Of a DNA stretch of 64,000 bases, positions 31,283 to 40,842 are shown piece after piece. Source of the DNA: Dielma fastidiosa (GTDB lineage: Bacteria; Bacillota_I; Bacilli_A; Erysipelotrichales; Erysipelotrichaceae). Position numbers and translations under genes: made by a program. The notes beneath the pieces are model-generated. The model searched no databases. It was given only the letters and a program-made list of their open reading frames with translations, and was not told the origin of the DNA. Position 1 is the first letter of the stretch, and every line of letters starts with the position of its first letter. The stretch lies in assembly GCF_000313565.1 (NCBI RefSeq), contig NZ_HE578931.1:1-64000 (forward strand), written 5' to 3'.

Positions 31283-32815
31283 CTAATGTTTAAAATGTCT
31301 GATACCGGTATAAACCATCGCGATGCCATGCTTATTGCATTCATCCACTGACAGCTGATCCTTAATTGAACCGCCCGGCTGAATAATAGCCGTTATCCCA
31401 GCTTTAGCCGCTTCTTCAACGGTATCCGGCATCGGGAAGTAAGCATCTGAACCCATTACTGAACCCTTAGCCTTTTCACCGGCTTGCTCAATGGCGATTT
31501 TAGCCGCGCCGACACGATTCATCTGACCCGCGCCAACACCAACTGTCATATTATCCTTAACTAAAACAATCGCATTTGATTTCACATGCTTTACTGTCTT
31601 CCATGCAAACATCAGCTGTTCCAATTCCTGAGCAGTTGGTTTACGTTCAGTAACGCATGTTAAGTCATTGACTGTAACCAGCTTCAAATCAGCATCCTGA
31701 ACCAACAATCCATCATTTACATTGGTTACTTTCAGCTTCGCATTAACATCAAGATCAGTATCCAATGTCATTAAACGAATGTTCTTCTTCTGTGACAGAA
31801 TCGCAAATGCCTCATCCGTGAAGCCCGGCGCAATAATGATTTCAAGGAAAATCTTACTTAGCTTTTCAGCTGTTGGTGTATCCACAACCTGATTGGTTGC
31901 TACAATACCGCCGAAAATACTTGTAGAATCAGCTTCATATGCCTTATCCCATGCTTCTTCAAGATTCTTGCCAACACCGATACCGCATGGATTCATATGC
32001 TTTAAACCTACAACGCAAGGCTGACCAGCGAAATCTTTCAGAATTTCAATAGCCGCATTGCCGTCCTGAATATTATTGTAGGACAGTTCCTTACCATGCA
32101 GCTGCTTCGCATTTGCCAGTGAATACTTCGGATCAGCACTCTTATAGAAAGCCGCTTCCTGATGAGGGTTTTCACCATAGCGCAGATCCTGTACTTTCTC
32201 ATAAGTCATCGTGAAATTCTCAGGGAATTTTTCACCTGTCTTTTCAGTTAGATATTGAGCAATAATCGTATCATAGGCTGCTGTATGACGGAATACCTTA
32301 GCCGCCAGTTTTTCTCTGGTTGCCAGTTCAGTATCGCCGTTATTCTTTAATTCATCAAGCACCAGCTCATAATCCTTAGGATCACAAACAACGGTTAAAT
32401 AACGATAGTTTTTTGATGCTGAACGCAGCATACTCGGACCGCCGATATCAATATTCTCGATAATTTCATCATGAGTAACACCGGCTTTTTTTAATGTTTG
32501 TTTAAAAGGATAAAGATTAACACAAACAAGATCGATGTATTCAATCTGATGCTCCTTCAGCTGTGCTACATGACTTGGATTGTCTCTTACACACAACAGT
32601 GCACCATGCACATTAGGATGCAAAGTCTTTACACGGCCATCCATGATTTCTGGGAAACCGGTAATTTCAGAAATATTAATTGTCTTGATGCCTTCAGCTT
32701 CTAAAGTCTTGGCTGTACCGCCAGTAGAGATGATCTCATAACCCAATTCAACAAGTCCCTGTACAAAAGGTACCAGGTTTGTTTTATCTGAAACACTTAC
32801 TAAAGCTCGTTTCAT
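31283..32815 (-). CDS. purH: Bifunctional AICAR formyltransferase/IMP cyclohydrolase
   Basis: 510 residues, typical length. The N-terminal IMP cyclohydrolase (MGS-like) domain, ~1-195, carries ISTGGTAKTLEAEGI and DGRVKTLHPNVHG. The C-terminal AICAR formyltransferase domain has DLRYGENPHQEAAFY and KHMNPCGIG. It performs the last two steps to IMP, using 10-formyl-THF made by Fhs. It is the last gene of purE-K-L-C-M-N-H, starts 2 bp after the purN stop and is followed by a strong terminator. Confidence 0.98.
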   Translation of the reverse strand: MKRALVSVSDKTNLVPFVQGLVELGYEIISTGGTAKTLEAEGIKTINISEITGFPEIMDGRVKTLHPNVHGALLCVRDNPSHVAQLKEHQIEYIDLVCVNLYPFKQTLKKAGVTHDEIIENIDIGGPSMLRSASKNYRYLTVVCDPKDYELVLDELKNNGDTELATREKLAAKVFRHTAAYDTIIAQYLTEKTGEKFPENFTMTYEKVQDLRYGENPHQEAAFYKSADPKYSLANAKQLHGKELSYNNIQDGNAAIEILKDFAGQPCVVGLKHMNPCGIGVGKNLEEAWDKAYEADSTSIFGGIVATNQVVDTPTAEKLSKIFLEIIIAPGFTDEAFAILSQKKNIRLMTLDTDLDVNAKLKVTNVNDGLLVQDADLKLVTVNDLTCVTERKPTAQELEQLMFAWKTVKHVKSNAIVLVKDNMTVGVGAGQMNRVGAAKIAIEQAGEKAKGSVMGSDAYFPMPDTVEEAAKAGITAIIQPGGSIKDQLSVDECNKHGIAMVYTGIRHFKH

Positions 32816-32816
32816 G

Positions 32817-33404
32817 TTAACACTCTCCTTTTTCTATTTTTTCACATAACTGATTCAATACTTCAGGATACATCTTATACTCAAGAGCATGCACATGCTC
32901 CTCTAAAATCTCAAGTGTCCATTCAGGATCAATACTGATCTTTTCCTGATGAATAATCGGCCCTGTATCGATGCCCTCATCCAAATAATGCAGTGTAACG
33001 CCAGTTTCACTCACCTTTGCATTGTAAGCATCAAGGATACTTTGTTTTCCCGGGAAATATGGCAGATACGCCGGGTGCAGATTGACGATACGCTTTGGAT
33101 ACGCGGCAAGCAATACCGGCGACACTATGCGCATATAACCAGCAAGCGCAATCAGTTCAACCTCTCTCTTACGCAAATATTGAAGAATTTCCTCTTCATA
33201 CTCCGCTTTGGAAGGGAATGCCTTTGGATTTACATAGACCCATGGAATCTCTAAACGCTTTGCTCTCTCGATGGCCTTTGCGTGTTCCTTATCCACTACC
33301 AGCAATGCTACAGCAGCATTCTTGATTGTGCCGTCATTGATACGATTTACGATGTTCTCGAAATTTGTACCGGAACCGGAAGCAAAGACTGCCAGTTTTA
33401 CCAT
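32817..33404 (-). CDS. purN: Phosphoribosylglycinamide formyltransferase
   Basis: 195 residues. It transfers a formyl group from 10-formyl-THF to GAR. Visible are the phosphate-binding [12 protein letters not shown] at the N-terminus, LAGYMRI, the catalytic region [18 protein letters not shown] and [17 protein letters not shown] with the conserved Asp. It overlaps the end of purM by 7 bp. Confidence 0.97.
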
Positions 33405-34426
33405 TTTAGCTTAACCTCGCCGCTGTCGGTAATCTTACCGATAACATAGCTTTCTTCACCGATTTCACTTAACAGCTGCTGAAGCTTCGCAGCATCATCA
33501 GCATCAACCGCGCAGACAAAACCAATTCCCATATTGAATACATTATACATTTCTTCTTTATCGATATTGCCCAGCTTCTGCAGCAATTCAAAGATTGGTT
33601 TTTTAGGGAAAGCATTCACATCAATCTCAATACCCTGTCCGTCATGCAGCATCCGCGGCAGATTTTCATAGAAGCCGCCGCCAGTTACATGACTCATGCC
33701 GTGCAGATCTACCTTGCCAAATAAATGCTTGATGGCCTTCACATAGATTTTAGTCGGTGTCAGGATTTCTTCACCTAATGTTTTACCTAATTCAGGCATA
33801 TATTCATCTAATTTTAATTGATGATCCTTAAACAGAATCTTACGAATCAATGAGAAACCATTTGAATGGCAGCCGCTGGATGGCAGACCCACTAAAACAT
33901 CACCGACCTTAACCTTTGAACCATCAATCAAATTCGCCTTATCAACGGCACCGACACAGAAGCCGGCAATATCATAATGATGCTCATCATACATATCCGG
34001 CATTTCAGCTGTTTCCCCGCCAATTAAAGCACATTCAGATAATACGCAGCCGTCAGCAACCCCCTTGACCAGCTGTTCAATTTTCTCCGGATAGTTTTTA
34101 CCTACCGCTAAATAATCAAGGAAGAAAATCGGTGATGCCCCCTGCACCAATACATCATTGACACACATTGCCACAGCATCGATACCAATCGTATCATGCT
34201 TATCCATTTCAAAAGCCACCATCAGCTTCGTACCGACACCATCTGTTCCTGATACCAGCACTGGTTCTTTCATATTCAGCATGCTTAAATCAAACATACC
34301 GCCAAAAGCGCCGATAGAATCAATCGCACCCTTAACCTTTGTTCTCGCTACATGACTTTTAATTCTTCTTACTGACTCATAACCGGCTTCAAGATTCACG
34401 CCAGCTTCTTCATAGTGCTTGCTCAT
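33398..34426 (-). CDS. purM: Phosphoribosylformylglycinamidine cyclo-ligase (AIR synthetase)
   Basis: 342 residues. It closes the imidazole ring of FGAM with ATP. Visible are the N-terminal [25 protein letters not shown]-like [17 protein letters not shown], the [11 protein letters not shown] metal/ATP site and [12 protein letters not shown]. Spacing to purC is zero, and it shares 7 bp with purN. Confidence 0.97.
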
Positions 34427-35134
34427 TTATGCTTCCTCTTTCGTTAAACGTTTGCAGATTTCAATATAAGCCTCTTCTACATTACCCATTTCCCGTCTGA
34501 AACGGTCTTTATCAAGCTTTTCATTCGTATCCTTATCCCATAAGCGGCAGCTGTCCGGTGAAATTTCATCTGCCAGCATGATATTGCCATCCGCATCTTT
34601 ACCAAATTCAATCTTGAAATCAATCAAACGAACTCCCACACTGTCAAACAGCTTGATCAACAGCTGATTAATCTGAGCGGTAAGCTCCCAAACCCGATTT
34701 AATTCTTCACGTGTCGCAATACCCATAGCAATTGCATGTGTATCGTTAATCAAAGGATCATTTAATTCATCACATTTATAACAGATTTCAAAGATAGGTT
34801 CCTTACATGGCACACCTTCTTCAATCCCTAACCGCTTAGAAGCCGAGCCTGCAAAGACATTGCGGACAATAACTTCCAAAGGTAAGATTTCAACCTTCCT
34901 GCACAGCTGATCACGTTCATTCAGCGTTTTAATTAAATGTGTTTCAATACCGTTATCTTTTAAGTAACCAAAAATCATAGTAGAAATTTTATTATTTAAA
35001 ATTCCTTTGTTATGAATCTGATCTTTTTTCAGGCCATTAAATGCTGTGGCATCATCCTTGTAATGCATGAGAATTTCATTAGGATTCTCTGTTTCATAAA
35101 TCTGTTTAGCCTTGCCTTCATATAATAGTTTCAT
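34427..35134 (-). CDS. purC: SAICAR synthetase
   Basis: 235 residues. It joins aspartate to CAIR with ATP. Typical strings are LLYEGKAKQIYET, YKDDATAFNG, EVIVRNVFAGS and LIDFKIEFG, followed by DEISPDSCRLWD. It has a good RBS (agggag) and sits 11 bp after purL. Confidence 0.97.
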   Translation of the reverse strand: MKLLYEGKAKQIYETENPNEILMHYKDDATAFNGLKKDQIHNKGILNNKISTMIFGYLKDNGIETHLIKTLNERDQLCRKVEILPLEVIVRNVFAGSASKRLGIEEGVPCKEPIFEICYKCDELNDPLINDTHAIAMGIATREELNRVWELTAQINQLLIKLFDSVGVRLIDFKIEFGKDADGNIMLADEISPDSCRLWDKDTNEKLDKDRFRREMGNVEEAYIEICKRLTKEEA

Positions 35135-35145
35135 GTTTTTCTCCC

Positions 35146-38100
35146 TTATTTCTTGAAATAGTTTACACCATTTGTAAATATATCCTGATGTTTATTACCG
35201 CTGATATTCTGGAACAAGCCTTCCTCATAACGCTCACTGTGTCCCATCTTGCCGAAGATTTTACCATCAGCACTGGTAATTCCCTCAATAGCAAAGCTTG
35301 AGCCATTGATGTTATACAATCCATTCATCGTTGTCTGTCCATCAAGATCAGTGTATTGCGTTGCGACTTGACCATTGGCAAATAATTCTTCTGCTAATTC
35401 ATCACTGACTACAAATTTCCCTTCGCCATGAGAGAAGGCAATGGAATGCAGTTCATTTACCTTAAAGCTTGACAGCCATGGTGATTGATTGGATGTAACC
35501 TTTGTGCAGGCGATTTTTGAGACATGTCGGTTAATATTATTTCTGAACAATGTCGGTGAAGCAACATTCAGCTTCGTTATATCACCATAAGGCAGATAAC
35601 CGGATTTAATCAATGCCTGGAAACCATTGCAGATACCTAAAATTAAGCCATCACGCGCAAGCAAATCATCGATTGCTTTTCTGATTTTTTCATTACTTAA
35701 TACATTGGCAATAAACTTACCGGAGCCATCTGGTTCATCACCGCTTGAGAAACCGCCGCCAAGGGCAAGAATCTGTGCGTTTGATAGTTTATCGCTTAAT
35801 TCATTTAAGCTTTCTTCAATTGCCTGTACATTCATATTCTTAAATACTACGATTTCTACTTCAGCGCCAGCTCTTTCAAAGGCTTGTTTCGTATCATATT
35901 CACAATTTGATCCAGGGAATACCGGAATAATGACTTTGACATGATCCGTTGGATTCGCACATTTTTTGATTTCCTTTGCTTCATAGACTGGCGTATTAAA
36001 CCTTGTTTTATCTTCATCAACAATAATTGGATATAATTTTTTATAACGGCTTTCCCATGCTTCGATTGCTTCTTCAATCGTCAATGACGCTTCGTTGATC
36101 TGCAGCGTTGGCTGTTCTGTTACTGTACCTAAATAAATGAAATTTTCTTCATGAATTTCAGCCGATGTTTCAATCAGCATGCCGCCGATATTTAAGTCAA
36201 ACAAGGCTTCATCACTCTTAACACAGATGCCCAGCTTGTTGCCGAAGCTCATTTTGCATAAAGCTTCCGCGATACCGCCAACCTTGATTGTACATGCAGC
36301 GGATACTTGATGTTCACTGATCAGATCATAAACTTTTGTGAAGTTCTTCTTCAAGGCTTCATAATTGGCACTGCCGTTTTCATTCATTGGATGCTTAACA
36401 AAATAAATCTTGCTGCCAGCCTGTTTAAATTCAGTAGAAACGATATGATCCGCTTTTTCAGCAGCTACCGCAAAAGTGATTAAAGTCGGCGGAACATGAA
36501 TTTGATTAAAGGTTCCGCTCATAGAATCTTTACCGCCGATAGCTGGTGTTTCAAAGGCCATCTGGGCTTCGATTAAGCCAAGTAAAGCCTGCATCGGTTT
36601 ACCCCATTTTTCAGGTACTTGATTTAATCTTTCAAAATATTCCTGACAAGATAAGCGGGCCTTGCGATAATCACCGCCCAATGCGGTAAGCTTTGCTAAT
36701 GCCTCTACTACGCTGTAACTGCCAGTAAGATATGGGGAATAGTCCGCCAATTCTGAATTAAAGCCATAGGTCATCATCGATACTGTATTGGTAAAGCCAA
36801 GTACCGGTAATTTTTGTACAGAGCCTTCGGTTTCTCCTAATTGATACTTACCGCCATAAGGCATCAGTACCGTTGATTTGCCAATCGTTGAGTCAAACAT
36901 TTCAACTAAACCTTTTTGACTTGCGACATTAGGCTGTTTCAAATTATTTAAAATAGCGTCCTTTAAATCGCCGTACGCTGCCTGATGGAATGGATCTTTA
37001 TTTTCATCACCCGCTTTAATTACAACGGATTGATGTTGACGGACACCATTTGTATCAAGGAAAGCACGGGCAATATCGACAATGACTTCACCTTGAAAGC
37101 TCATTACCAGCCGAGGTTCTTCAGTGACTTCCGCTACCTCATATGCTTTCAGGTTTTCCTGATAAGCAAGCTCCTTAAATCTTTCTACATCTTTTGGCTC
37201 AACCAGCACTGCCATTCTTTCCTGTGATTCAGAAATAGCCAGCTCTGTGCCGCTTAAGCCTGCATATTTAACTTCAACCTTATCCAGATCGATTTTTAAA
37301 CCATCGGCAATTTCACCAACCGCTACGCTGACACCGCCGGCACCGAAGTCATTGGCTTTTTTAATCAAACGTGTTACTTCAGGATTTCTGAATAATCGCT
37401 GCAGTTTGCGTTCAATCGGTGCATTCCCCTTTTGTACCTCACTGGAACATTTAGTCAATGAAGTATCATTATGCTCCTTACTGGAACCAGTCGCACCGCC
37501 GACACCATCACGGCCAGTCGCGCCGCCAATCAATAAAATGACATCACCGGCAGCTGGCTTCTCACGCTTAACCCATGATTTTGGAGCCGCCCCGACAACA
37601 GCGCCTACTTCCATTCGTTTAGCGGTATAACCATCGTGATAGATTTCTTTTACATAAGTTGTAGCCAAACCAATCTGATTGCCATAGCTTGAATAACCTT
37701 GGGCAGCACCTTTAGAAATTCTGGACTGCGGAAGTTTATTTGGCAATGCGTCTTTTAAATCCGCTGTAATATCACCGGCTCCGGTAACCCGCATCGCCTG
37801 ATACACATAGCTTCTGCCTGACAATGGGTCACGGATGGCACCGCCGATACATGTACTGGCACCGCCGAAAGGTTCAATTTCAGTTGGGTGATTGTGGGTT
37901 TCATTCTTAAACATCAGCAGCCATGTTTCTTCCTTGCCATTGACATCAACTGGAATTTCAATGGAACAAGCATTAATTTCATCACTGATTTCCAAGTCTT
38001 CCAGCTTGCCAGCCTTACGCAGCGCTTTACCGGCAACCGTAGCCATATCCATCAACGTCATCGGTTTGCGGTTGCCATGAACCTTTTCACGCAGCGCGCA

Positions 38101-38853
38101 GTATGTATCATAAGCCTGCTGGATCTGTTCCTGATAATGACCAGCATCGATCTTTACATTTTCAAGACATGTTTCAAAGGTTGTATGACGGCAGTGATCT
38201 GACCAATATGTATCTAATACTTTAATTTCCGTTTCACTTGGATCACGCTTTTCTTCATCACGGAAATAATCGCGGATAAATGCAAGATCAGCTTCACTCA
38301 TTGCCAGACCTTCACTCTCTCTAAAAGCAGCAATCTGCTCATCGTTATATTTCGTAAAGCCAACAATGGTTAACACCGGCTCAATTTCCACATCTTCTTC
38401 ATAGGCCAATACGGATAAATCTTTTTCCCGCATTTCTACCGGATTGATCAGATAATGCTTTACCGCATCGATTTCATCTTCACTTACATTACCATTAAGT
38501 ACAATCAAGCGGCCGCTTTTCACAACGACATCCTGTTTATTATTCAGCAGCATCAAGCATTGCTCGGCAGAATCCGCACGCTGATCATACTGTCCTGGCA
38601 GACATTCATAAGCAACAATTTGTTTTTTCTCTAAATCAAGCGTATCTCTTACTTCATCGGTTACGGTTTCTGACAATACCTTTGTTTTCAAAAGCTTTAA
38701 ATCCTCTTCATCAGCATTGAATACATCATAGATATTGTAATATTCAATCCCTGTCAGACCAGTTAATGATAAGTTAGTTTTTAATTCACGATACAGTGAT
38801 TCTGATTCAATCTGAAACTGCTGTTTTTTGTTGACAAACACTCGATAGTTCAT
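35146..38853 (-). CDS. purL: Phosphoribosylformylglycinamidine synthase, single-chain
   Basis: 1,235 residues. It combines the FGAM synthase and glutaminase functions that are split into PurS/L/Q in Bacillus. The N-terminal substrate-adaptor part is followed by tandem AIRS-like ATP domains (SDHCRHTTFE, KNETHNHPTEIEPFGGAST, GGKDSMSG). A C-terminal class I glutamine amidotransferase (~residues 970-1235) has PVFPGSNCEYD and the nucleophile in GICNGFQAL, with HGEGKF near the end. Length and sequence fit the clostridial-type large PurL rather than the enterobacterial one. No purS or purQ is needed or seen. Confidence 0.97.
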   Translation of the reverse strand: MNYRVFVNKKQQFQIESESLYRELKTNLSLTGLTGIEYYNIYDVFNADEEDLKLLKTKVLSETVTDEVRDTLDLEKKQIVAYECLPGQYDQRADSAEQCLMLLNNKQDVVVKSGRLIVLNGNVSEDEIDAVKHYLINPVEMREKDLSVLAYEEDVEIEPVLTIVGFTKYNDEQIAAFRESEGLAMSEADLAFIRDYFRDEEKRDPSETEIKVLDTYWSDHCRHTTFETCLENVKIDAGHYQEQIQQAYDTYCALREKVHGNRKPMTLMDMATVAGKALRKAGKLEDLEISDEINACSIEIPVDVNGKEETWLLMFKNETHNHPTEIEPFGGASTCIGGAIRDPLSGRSYVYQAMRVTGAGDITADLKDALPNKLPQSRISKGAAQGYSSYGNQIGLATTYVKEIYHDGYTAKRMEVGAVVGAAPKSWVKREKPAAGDVILLIGGATGRDGVGGATGSSKEHNDTSLTKCSSEVQKGNAPIERKLQRLFRNPEVTRLIKKANDFGAGGVSVAVGEIADGLKIDLDKVEVKYAGLSGTELAISESQERMAVLVEPKDVERFKELAYQENLKAYEVAEVTEEPRLVMSFQGEVIVDIARAFLDTNGVRQHQSVVIKAGDENKDPFHQAAYGDLKDAILNNLKQPNVASQKGLVEMFDSTIGKSTVLMPYGGKYQLGETEGSVQKLPVLGFTNTVSMMTYGFNSELADYSPYLTGSYSVVEALAKLTALGGDYRKARLSCQEYFERLNQVPEKWGKPMQALLGLIEAQMAFETPAIGGKDSMSGTFNQIHVPPTLITFAVAAEKADHIVSTEFKQAGSKIYFVKHPMNENGSANYEALKKNFTKVYDLISEHQVSAACTIKVGGIAEALCKMSFGNKLGICVKSDEALFDLNIGGMLIETSAEIHEENFIYLGTVTEQPTLQINEASLTIEEAIEAWESRYKKLYPIIVDEDKTRFNTPVYEAKEIKKCANPTDHVKVIIPVFPGSNCEYDTKQAFERAGAEVEIVVFKNMNVQAIEESLNELSDKLSNAQILALGGGFSSGDEPDGSGKFIANVLSNEKIRKAIDDLLARDGLILGICNGFQALIKSGYLPYGDITKLNVASPTLFRNNINRHVSKIACTKVTSNQSPWLSSFKVNELHSIAFSHGEGKFVVSDELAEELFANGQVATQYTDLDGQTTMNGLYNINGSSFAIEGITSADGKIFGKMGHSERYEEGLFQNISGNKHQDIFTNGVNYFKK

Positions 38854-38865
38854 AGTTCCCTCTTT

Positions 38866-39936
38866 CTACCTGATAAAGGCTTCCGCTTCTTTTACCAATG
38901 CTTCTAAATCATCACCGCAGAATGTGACATGCCCCATTTTACGGTTATTTTTAACTTCCTTTTTACCATACATATAGACCTTCGCATAAGGTGGACACTG
39001 CTTGCTGGCTGCCGCTGATACATGCTGTCCCAAGATATTAACCATCACCGCCGGACTTTTGATTTTTGGCTGCGGCAGTGTTTCATTGAAAAGAGCCGCG
39101 ATTGCCAGATCATACTGGCTTTTATCATAAGCATCCATTGTTAAGTGACCGCTGTTATGCGGACGCGGTGCAATCTCATTGATATAGATTTCACCATCTT
39201 TACCAACAAACATTTCAAGTACGAGAATGCCTGTAAAGCCAAAGCCTGACATTACCTGCAATGCTGTATCCTTTGCCCTGCATTTAATTTCCTCACTCAC
39301 TCTGGCTGGTGAAATTGATAAGTGCAGGATACCATTTTCATGAATATTCTCAATCGGTTCAAATACGGCCATAGAGCCATTCATACTGCGTACAACTATG
39401 ACCGATACCTCACACGCAAAATCAACAAGGCCTTCAACGATATATTGCACATTGCCCTTTTCCTGCATAAACTTTTCTAAATCCGCATCAGTCCTGATCA
39501 GCCATTGACCTTTGCCGTCATAGCCGCCTTCACATGTTTTTATAATATAAGGCATAGGAATTGAAATCGTTTCACTTAATTCTTCATAGGGTGCTGTTTT
39601 AGCACCGGTTTTACGGATGGCATCTTTTTCACGCAGCCGATTCTGTGAAATATGCAATGGATCATATCCCTGCGGAACATTACCGCCATAGCTTTTCACA
39701 AGTTCCACTGCTTCCGCCTTGATGTTTTCAAATTCATATGTAATCACATCACTGTTTTCAGCCATTTCCTTCAGACAGGCAGGATCTTCATACGGGCCAA
39801 CTATCATGCGGTCGCTGTTGCGGGAAGCCGATACCGGATCTGATGGATCAAGGACAATCGTCGAATGATGAGCCATATGTGCAGCATCAACCAGATACAT
39901 ACCCAGCTGACCGCCGCCGATAATACCTACTCGCAT
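38866..39936 (-). CDS. purK: N5-carboxyaminoimidazole ribonucleotide synthase
   Basis: 356 residues, ATP-grasp fold. It carboxylates AIR to N5-CAIR with ATP and bicarbonate. Visible are [22 protein letters not shown], the lid region [24 protein letters not shown] and [15 protein letters not shown]. It overlaps the end of purE by 10 bp, has little RBS of its own and so is probably translationally coupled to purE. Confidence 0.97.
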
Positions 39937-40418
39937 ATTTCAATCTGCGCATCATCAAGCACAGTCTGCGTTTGTTTTTGTTTATAAGCTTTCAGTTTTT
40001 CACGAACGTTTAAGTCTTGCAGCGCCAAAATTTCAGCGGCAAGAATACCAGCGTTCTTTGCGCCTGATGTACCGATTGCCGTTGTCGCCACCGGAATGCC
40101 GCCCGGCATTTGAACAATGGAAAGCAAAGAATCTAATCCGCTTAACGCCCTTGACTGAACGGGTACACCGATTACCGGAATTGTCGTCATCGCCGCTACC
40201 ATACCCGGCAGATGCGCCGCACCTCCTGCACCGGCAATAATTACCTGAATTCCTCTTGCCTCTGCTTCATCTGCGAACTGCACCATAGCATGCGGTGTAC
40301 GATGCGCGGAAACCACTCTTGCTTCATACCCAATGCCAAACTCCTTCAGCATGTTCATTGCTTCCTGCATCGTCGCAAGATCTGAACGTGAACCCATAAT
40401 CACACTAACTTTTACCAT
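39927..40418 (-). CDS. purE: N5-carboxyaminoimidazole ribonucleotide mutase
   Basis: 163 residues from the ATG at 40418, chosen for the strong ggagg 8 nt upstream; an in-frame TTG at 40469 would lie in the upstream terminator stem. It converts N5-CAIR to CAIR. Visible are [12 protein letters not shown], the catalytic-region [23 protein letters not shown] and [22 protein letters not shown]. It is the first gene of the seven-gene pur operon, behind a guanine riboswitch and a second attenuator. Confidence 0.97.
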
Positions 40419-40433
40419 TCCCTGTTCCTCCTT

Positions 40434-40476
40434 CAAAAGAAAAAGACATATTGGTTGCACTAAAAACAATATGTCT
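40434..40476 (-). terminator. Second attenuator hairpin upstream of purE, overlapping the leader ORF
   Basis: On the minus strand a perfect 10-bp stem (agacatattg/caatatgtct; arms 40467-40476 and 40444-40453) with a 13-nt loop is followed by ttttcttttg. The 5' arm lies in the last codons of the leader ORF and the loop holds its TAG stop, so a translating ribosome would prevent stem formation. It ends just before the purE RBS. Confidence 0.75.
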
Positions 40477-40525
40477 GGATATCCATAAGTATATGAATAG
40501 GATTTCTCGAATTGATGACCATCAT
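40460..40525 (-). CDS. Leader peptide (21 codons) between riboswitch and purE
   Basis: ATGATG preceded by taggagg (4-7 nt spacing) opens a 21-codon frame, [21 protein letters not shown], ending in TAG. It is too short to prove coding by composition. The near-perfect Shine-Dalgarno sequence and the overlap of its last codons with a terminator stem argue for a translated leader that couples ribosome progress to transcription of the pur genes. There is no obvious run of one regulatory amino acid. Confidence 0.55.
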
Positions 40526-40545
40526 TGATCCTCCTAGTGTTTTAA

Positions 40546-40580
40546 AATAAAAAAACTGTTTTTCCACAAGTAAAAAACAG
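40546..40580 (-). terminator. Riboswitch-controlled terminator
   Basis: On the minus strand the stem ctgttttt/aaaaacag is followed by tttttttatttt. Its loop segment acttgtgg can pair with cuacaagu, the 3' arm of aptamer helix P1 (eight pairs, one G-U). Ligand binding would therefore free the terminator, and without ligand the antiterminator would form. Confidence 0.85.
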
Positions 40581-40594
40581 CATCGCTATTTTCA

Positions 40595-40659
40595 CTTGTA
40601 GTCTGCTGATTAGGTCAGCAGGTAGAGACTTGTCAGCCAAATTCTGACGGTTATACAAG
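40595..40659 (-). promoter_or_regulatory. Guanine-class purine riboswitch aptamer
   Basis: Read on the minus strand: P1 arm cttgta, then TATAA; P2 cgtcag/ctgac with a loop containing TTGG; joining segment GTCTCTACC; P3 tgctga/agcaga-like stem with loop CCTAATC; then GACTAC and the P1 return arm acaag. The paired GG and CC of the two loops and the TCTACC joining segment are hallmarks. The cytosine in GACTAC at the specificity position indicates guanine/hypoxanthine rather than adenine. It would switch the purE-H operon off when guanine is plentiful. Confidence 0.92.
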
Positions 40660-40680
40660 ATCTATTCGAATTACAGTATC

Positions 40681-40709
40681 ATTCTACAAGAGTTAACTGT
40701 TTATTTCAA
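40681..40709 (-). promoter_or_regulatory. Promoter of the purE-K-L-C-M-N-H operon
   Basis: TTGAAA (complement of 40704-40709) and TAGAAT (complement of 40681-40686) with a 17-bp spacer. The transcript would start ~15 nt before the riboswitch aptamer. The stretch 40710-40842 is AT-rich and shows nothing else. Confidence 0.7.
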
Positions 40710-40842
40710 TATAAAAAACGACTTTTTACTAAAATTCAGCAATTTTTTTAATAATTTACCTCATAAAAAATAAATTTTATGCAATCAGTATTAAAATTTA
40801 TTCGAATATCTAAAAAAATTCTTATCACATCTGCCAATATGC

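Follow-up and report, generated by a model that had tools for sequence, protein, structure and literature searches.

An open reading frame that runs into a terminator follows the guanine riboswitch of the Dielma fastidiosa purine operon: a candidate second attenuator recurring among relatives

The window analysed here, a 64,000-nucleotide stretch of Dielma fastidiosa DNA (NZ_HE578931.1), carries a purine biosynthesis operon with the gene order purE-K-L-C-M-N-H, headed by a leader in which a guanine-class riboswitch unit is followed by a short open reading frame (ORF) that ends inside a second terminator (Table 1). PurL is encoded as a single chain in the operon (31283-40418), and neither purF nor purD is among the genes read there, so both must be located elsewhere in the genome.

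Table 1. Features of the purE leader and the pur operon in the window; all lie on the reverse strand (-).
Feature	Position	Strand	Evidence
Promoter-like site TTGAAA-17-TAGAAT, sigma-70-type	40681-40709	-	consensus scan, 10/12
Guanine-class purine riboswitch aptamer	40579-40678	-	Rfam RF00167, 62.9 bits, E 1.4e-8
Riboswitch antiterminator hairpin, uses P1 3' strand	40564-40601	-	MFE -17.4 kcal/mol, z -3.86
Terminator 1 (riboswitch), CTGTTTTT/AAAAACAG + U tract	40545-40580	-	sequence; independently recovered by hairpin search
Shine-Dalgarno AGGAGG of leader ORF	40530-40535	-	sequence
Leader ORF	40460-40525	-	sequence; position and Shine-Dalgarno kept in tandem relatives; stop-terminator relation kept
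Terminator 2 stem-loop, 10 perfect pairs	40444-40476	-	fold and hairpin search; 5' arm inside leader ORF
U tract of terminator 2, TTTTCTTTT	40435-40443	-	sequence
Shine-Dalgarno AAGGAGG of purE	40427-40433	-	sequence
purE, first gene of operon	39927-40418	-	NCBIfam TIGR01162, 221.6 bits
purK, purL (single chain), purC, purM, purN, purH	31283-39936	-	NCBIfam equivalogs; contiguous ORFs

The promoter-like site lies where the initial annotation had placed a promoter, though it is a consensus match only; equally many matches are expected by chance in the region, and by itself the match is no evidence of function. The aptamer exceeds the RF00167 gathering score of 37 (the covariance-model cut-off), and its J3/1 segment reads GACUAC in the RF00167 alignment, with a guanine-type C at what we take to be the specificity position; we assign it to the guanine class, with guanine as the predicted ligand. 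The antiterminator is, by fold and by sequence, mutually exclusive with both P1 and terminator 1 (stem 40580-40573/40563-40556, U tract running to 40545), and the aptamer and the terminator with its P1-pairing antiterminator were recovered much as the initial annotation had drawn them. A search of 40380-40760 for a PRPP (ykkC-2b type) or other second aptamer returned no family at E values up to 10. The other guanine riboswitch of this genome, located before an NCS2-type purine permease, has a single terminator and no leader ORF.

The leader ORF that follows is 21 codons long, or 20 if the second in-frame ATG at 40522 is used. Its final codons double as the 5' arm of terminator 2, and its stop codon UAG (40462-40460) sits within the 13-nt loop between the two arms (AGACATATTG, 40476-40467, and CAATATGTCT, 40453-40444). 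The stem is A+T-rich, with three G-C pairs and a stability of about -9 to -11 kcal/mol; nevertheless, the two strands of the 64 kb together hold only two perfect hairpins of 10 bp or more with such a U tract, terminator 2 being one of them, and nothing comparable appeared in 400 shuffles of the leader or in six shuffled windows. Terminator 2 is not a chance structure. In folds of partial transcripts we found no stable structure that competes for its 5' arm before the terminator forms. The ORF with its Shine-Dalgarno sequence (SD), and the perfect 10-bp terminator that takes its 5' arm from the last ORF codons, are thus as previously claimed.

For comparison we searched for PurE in 273 genomes of the window's family and read about 120 purE upstream regions, the relatives compared being other genera of the family (genus labels and counts in this comparison are taken from kinship codes). 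A short ORF running into a terminator precedes purE in 38 of the genera examined. The complete order seen in the window, guanine riboswitch, terminator, SD, short ORF, terminator and purE, is found in 11 genera, the window included (loci L005, L027, L036, L038, L039, L040, L043, L044, L045, L046, L140 and L148), and the reversed order, leader ORF and terminator followed by guanine riboswitch and terminator, in about 14 (among others L002, L003, L006, L013, L014, L019, L041, L042, L048, L049, L053, L136, L138, L156, L157, L159, L162, L164, L167, L169 and L174), some of the riboswitch calls in these tandem and reversed loci being confirmed by Rfam and the rest made from the sequence pattern. About 13 more genera have the leader ORF and terminator without a riboswitch (for example L008, L010, L025, L034, L047, L050, L052, L135, L143, L144, L145, L149, L151, L153 and the large genus g31). 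In the loci with the window's order the aptamer starts 233-278 nt and the ORF 106-128 nt upstream of purE, so the spacing is kept though the peptides differ. The tandem arrangement before the pur operon that the initial annotation had put forward is therefore shared by relatives, and its conservation check came out in its favour: an SD and a short ORF are seen again and again while the sequences of peptide and stem vary, the opposite of a stem kept without its ORF and SD, which had been named as the outcome that would speak against it. As a putative regulatory element, the window's own leader ORF rests on architecture. At the level of sequence, these distributions demonstrate that leader attenuator and guanine riboswitch recur across the family as separable modules.

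Such modularity can be followed within one genus, g57, where L044 and L046 carry both modules and the loci L025-L030 (L027 excepted, which belongs to another genus) the leader attenuator only. About 110-140 nt upstream of its leader ORF, L028 has what looks like a relic of a guanine aptamer (CTTGTATAA...), the leader attenuator being intact; set against L044 and L046 of the same genus, which keep the aptamer, this is an apparent case of loss of the riboswitch with retention of the leader device. The aptamers themselves are not uniform. Those of L036 (1199-1300), L005, L039, L040 and L045 are of the guanine class with the junction TTTCTAGCC...GGGCTAC in place of TCTACC...GACTAC, changes near the binding pocket that perhaps alter ligand specificity. 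A few purE genes have a ZTP riboswitch instead (L171 and L205, Rfam RF01750). In the last 110 nt before purE of L196, L202, L209 and L211, the place occupied by the ZTP riboswitch in related genomes, there is a structured leader that ends in GCCGACC...GGTCGGTTTTT and is most evident in L202, L209 and L211; a scan of L196 and L202 gave no Rfam match, and this leader could be a variant ZTP-like aptamer.

What ties the leader ORF to the terminator is the position of its stop codon. Measured from the base at which the terminator 5' arm begins, the stop falls within -16 to +20 nt in 76 of 86 loci, compared with 9/86 and 19/86 in the two other frames and 32.5/86 expected from dinucleotide shuffles required to contain an ORF of 8 codons or more; the selection of ORFs (SD and at least 8 codons) biases this count upward, a bias that the shuffle control removes in part. 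Counted per genus, the stop is at the terminator in 34.3 of 38, where shuffles predict 16.9 (a binomial p of about 1e-8 with genera treated as independent, which they are not strictly). A ribosome at a stop codon in this zone would cover or abut the 5' arm. The peptide behaves differently: pN/pS ranges from 0.1 to 1.5, mostly 0.4-1.5 and often near 1, C-termini vary freely among relatives, and no regulatory codon run is shared by the leader peptides of relatives, MV(L/I/M) starts recurring in one group of leaders. The position of translation thus appears to be kept and the content of the peptide not, which points to translation itself, rather than a regulatory codon or an arrest peptide, as the functional property. 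The link of the ORF end to the terminator beyond chance, together with an unconserved peptide, supports the earlier reading that passage of the ribosome is what matters at terminator 2.

A second conserved feature concerns the start of the leader ORF. In 19 genera the start (GGAGGUCUUACUUAUGGUCUUAAGAAGA) lies within a covarying hairpin, which in 31 aligned leaders encloses both SD and AUG (consensus UUUUGGAGGUCUUACUUAUGGUCUUAAGAAGAUUUACAAAA, alignment A1). In these 31 leaders 81.7% of cells are paired, against 40-55% when the partners are slid; at 10 of the 15 pairs at least one sequence differs on both sides, and double-changed cells number 52 against 20 in shuffles. A covariance model of the hairpin, R1, gave a single match in each of 37 genomes from 19 genera; by position, 36 of these matches directly precede purE, and the remaining one is at a contig edge. 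The model found none in 43 further genomes of the order, and no Rfam family matches the hairpin. Both the start-hairpin group and the leader-first group need about 2 kcal/mol more than shuffles to expose SD and AUG, an excess that the purE starts in these loci do not show; structure thus holds back leader initiation in many genera. The window falls outside the start-hairpin group. R1 scores only 9.5 bits there (E 0.42), and sequestration of the SD was rejected, since the leader start opens more readily here than in shuffles, so the window represents a different sub-type.

Before purE the g31 genus has a different, strongly conserved leader element, GTTTGGTAAC..CCCCGTCGGG..GGATGGAGCTATGGCGTC..GTTATGACTCTCC, which extends from about 60 nt upstream of the leader start codon to 45 nt downstream of it, with the peptide mostly MASVVMTL (L190, L193, L195, L197, L199, L200, L203, L206-L208 and L210). 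It has no Rfam match and is possibly another structured leader; SD sequestration was rejected here also, there being no significant sequestration of the start site. A separate type of leader ORF (MRKNLCP...FRFN) with a CATGGC/GCCATG terminator precedes purE in L144, L160, L161 and L166, and in L160 and L166 its SD and start are strongly occluded, at 8.8 kcal/mol where shuffles give about 3.9.

Starting from the anatomy, non-randomness, recurrence and modularity documented above, we infer blockage of terminator 2 by the ribosome and the signal that sets it, and consider it likely, at a probability of roughly 0.7, that two independent transcription attenuators in series guard the pur operon, with leader translation as the antiterminator of terminator 2. 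Termination triggered by guanine is the established logic of purine riboswitches of this class; guanine on the aptamer would stabilise P1 and free terminator 1, stopping transcription. In transcripts that pass terminator 1, a ribosome would initiate on the leader ORF and, if close behind the RNA polymerase, would reach the end of the ORF and cover the 5' arm of terminator 2, blocking the hairpin and allowing purE to be transcribed; if leader translation is not timely, terminator 2 would form. Expression of the pur genes would then need both low guanine and prompt leader translation, and pur transcription would be coupled to translation status through terminator 2. Because no stable structure competes for the 5' arm, the ribosome itself is the best candidate for the antiterminator. 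Its input would most likely be ribosome loading or progress relative to RNA polymerase, whether set by translation capacity or by NTP-limited polymerase speed, and not one amino acid; neither peptide nor codons are conserved, and ribosome supply or polymerase speed fits this better. In B. subtilis RNA polymerase outruns the ribosome (PMC9226507), and the same behaviour, if also true in the window's lineage, would weaken ribosome-mediated antitermination.

Within this proposal, the signal might be named more narrowly. In a pyrBI-like scheme, a refinement of our preferred explanation, scarce purine NTPs would make the polymerase pause in the leader, allowing the ribosome to catch up with it and block terminator 2. 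The leader ORF overlapping its terminator is the pyrBI layout, the start-site hairpins of relatives would put initiation in competition with the advance of the polymerase, and a U run adjoins the terminator in 25 of 42 cases against 8.7 in shuffles. U runs are equally common, however, upstream of the riboswitch terminators in the same loci (23/31), and TTNTTT pause motifs show no excess over shuffles. We rejected both as specific pause marks; the U runs do not decide for an NTP-sensitive pause, and we regard the scheme as somewhat unlikely. If, instead, the ribosome were stalled by particular codons or by a metabolite that acts on the nascent peptide, the device would belong with the well-known leader-peptide attenuators, and the MV(L/I/M) starts of one group might be taken as a hint of it. 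In relatives, however, the start-site hairpin explains the MVL start, and the absence of a shared codon run, the free C-termini, pN/pS often near 1 and partial-transcript folds without a stable structure capturing the 5' arm of terminator 2 all speak against such stalling; an amino-acid-specific or arrest peptide was rejected on the codons and pN/pS, and we hold this reading to be highly improbable.

The conserved hairpin raises the question of whether the ORF merely relays to the terminator a decision taken at its start, by a protein or small molecule that controls leader initiation or binds the hairpin directly. Such a factor is possible for the genera that have the hairpin, whose strong conservation and covariation in 19 genera, exclusively before purE, it would explain. 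On the other hand, the loop sequence is altered in L035, L050 and L135, no known RNA family matches, and neither the window nor the g31 genus shows significant sequestration of the start site, so that as a general account we think it unlikely. Lastly, A+T-rich DNA readily yields ORFs of about 20 codons, and leader genes can increase downstream translation via reinitiation, as has been reported (PMC4833913); the ORF could then be a chance or reinitiation-enhancing frame, and terminator 2 not regulated by translation. The relation of stop codon and terminator is far above that in shuffles, however, and in leader-first loci a terminator and the whole riboswitch stand between the ORF and purE, which rules out reinitiation there. 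We rejected reinitiation as incompatible with these loci, and judge this reading as a whole very unlikely.

How does a ribosome-released terminator 2 compare with known devices? In the ampC and pyrBI attenuators of E. coli, translation of a leader ORF as far as the terminator prevents formation of the terminator, opposite to the logic of trp- and his-type leaders, where stalling of the ribosome matters. As in an ampC/pyrBI-type attenuator, the ORF end overlaps or abuts the 5' arm in the window and in the 76 loci counted above, and translation is proposed by analogy as the antiterminator; the window differs in operon and lineage and in the combination with a riboswitch. It departs from the trp/his type in having no regulatory codon run and no antiterminator competing for the 5' arm. 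With the guanine riboswitches of pur and xpt operons (RF00167) the window shares the aptamer, the guanine-type J3/1, the termination platform and the position before purE, and it adds in series a second terminator overlapped by an ORF. The tandem guanine-PRPP riboswitch, whose two aptamers have a single terminator in common (Sherlock et al., 2018, PMC5912903), likewise brings two purine-related inputs into one leader with a guanine aptamer; the window, in contrast, has no PRPP aptamer, has two terminators and an ORF-based second unit, and the order of the units is exchangeable in relatives. The nearest Firmicute mechanism is that of the drug-induced upstream ORFs such as vmlR, leader ORFs controlling an intrinsic terminator; those of B. 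subtilis vmlR and tlrB need drug-stalled ribosomes and an alternative antiterminator (PMC9226507, PMC6851288), and no such antiterminator was found in the window. Leader peptides with runs of His codons before Firmicute histidine genes (hisS) were reported as unexpected (Naville and Gautheret, 2010, PMC2965389); they too are leader-peptide attenuation in Firmicutes, while the window concerns a purine operon and has no such codon bias. A review of tandem riboswitches makes no mention of leader peptides (PMC9481103), and no account of an ORF-based attenuator in a purE leader, or of one combined in series with a guanine riboswitch, turned up in the literature searched, which included few subscription papers, in keeping with the initial annotation, which knew of no description of the tandem design. 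The components are known; their combination and family-wide modular use appear to be new.

Taking the family as a whole, we tentatively raise a wider possibility, to which we give somewhat less than even odds: purine synthesis may be governed mainly by the ribosome-based attenuator, with leader initiation, hairpin-gated in many genera, deciding the purE terminator, and with guanine riboswitches serving as an exchangeable second module placed before it, placed after it or lost. Firmicutes have been thought to rely mostly on riboswitches and T-boxes, and ribosome-coupled attenuation has been considered rare in them (PMC2965389), partly because the polymerase outruns the ribosomes in B. subtilis. 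If our proposal is true, this lineage would couple transcription and translation closely enough for attenuation, and its purine synthesis would be set by translation status in addition to guanine. It would also provide a purine-operon analogue of pyrBI and ampC attenuation together with a new family of structured leaders, of which the hairpin described by model R1 is a concrete new RNA element.
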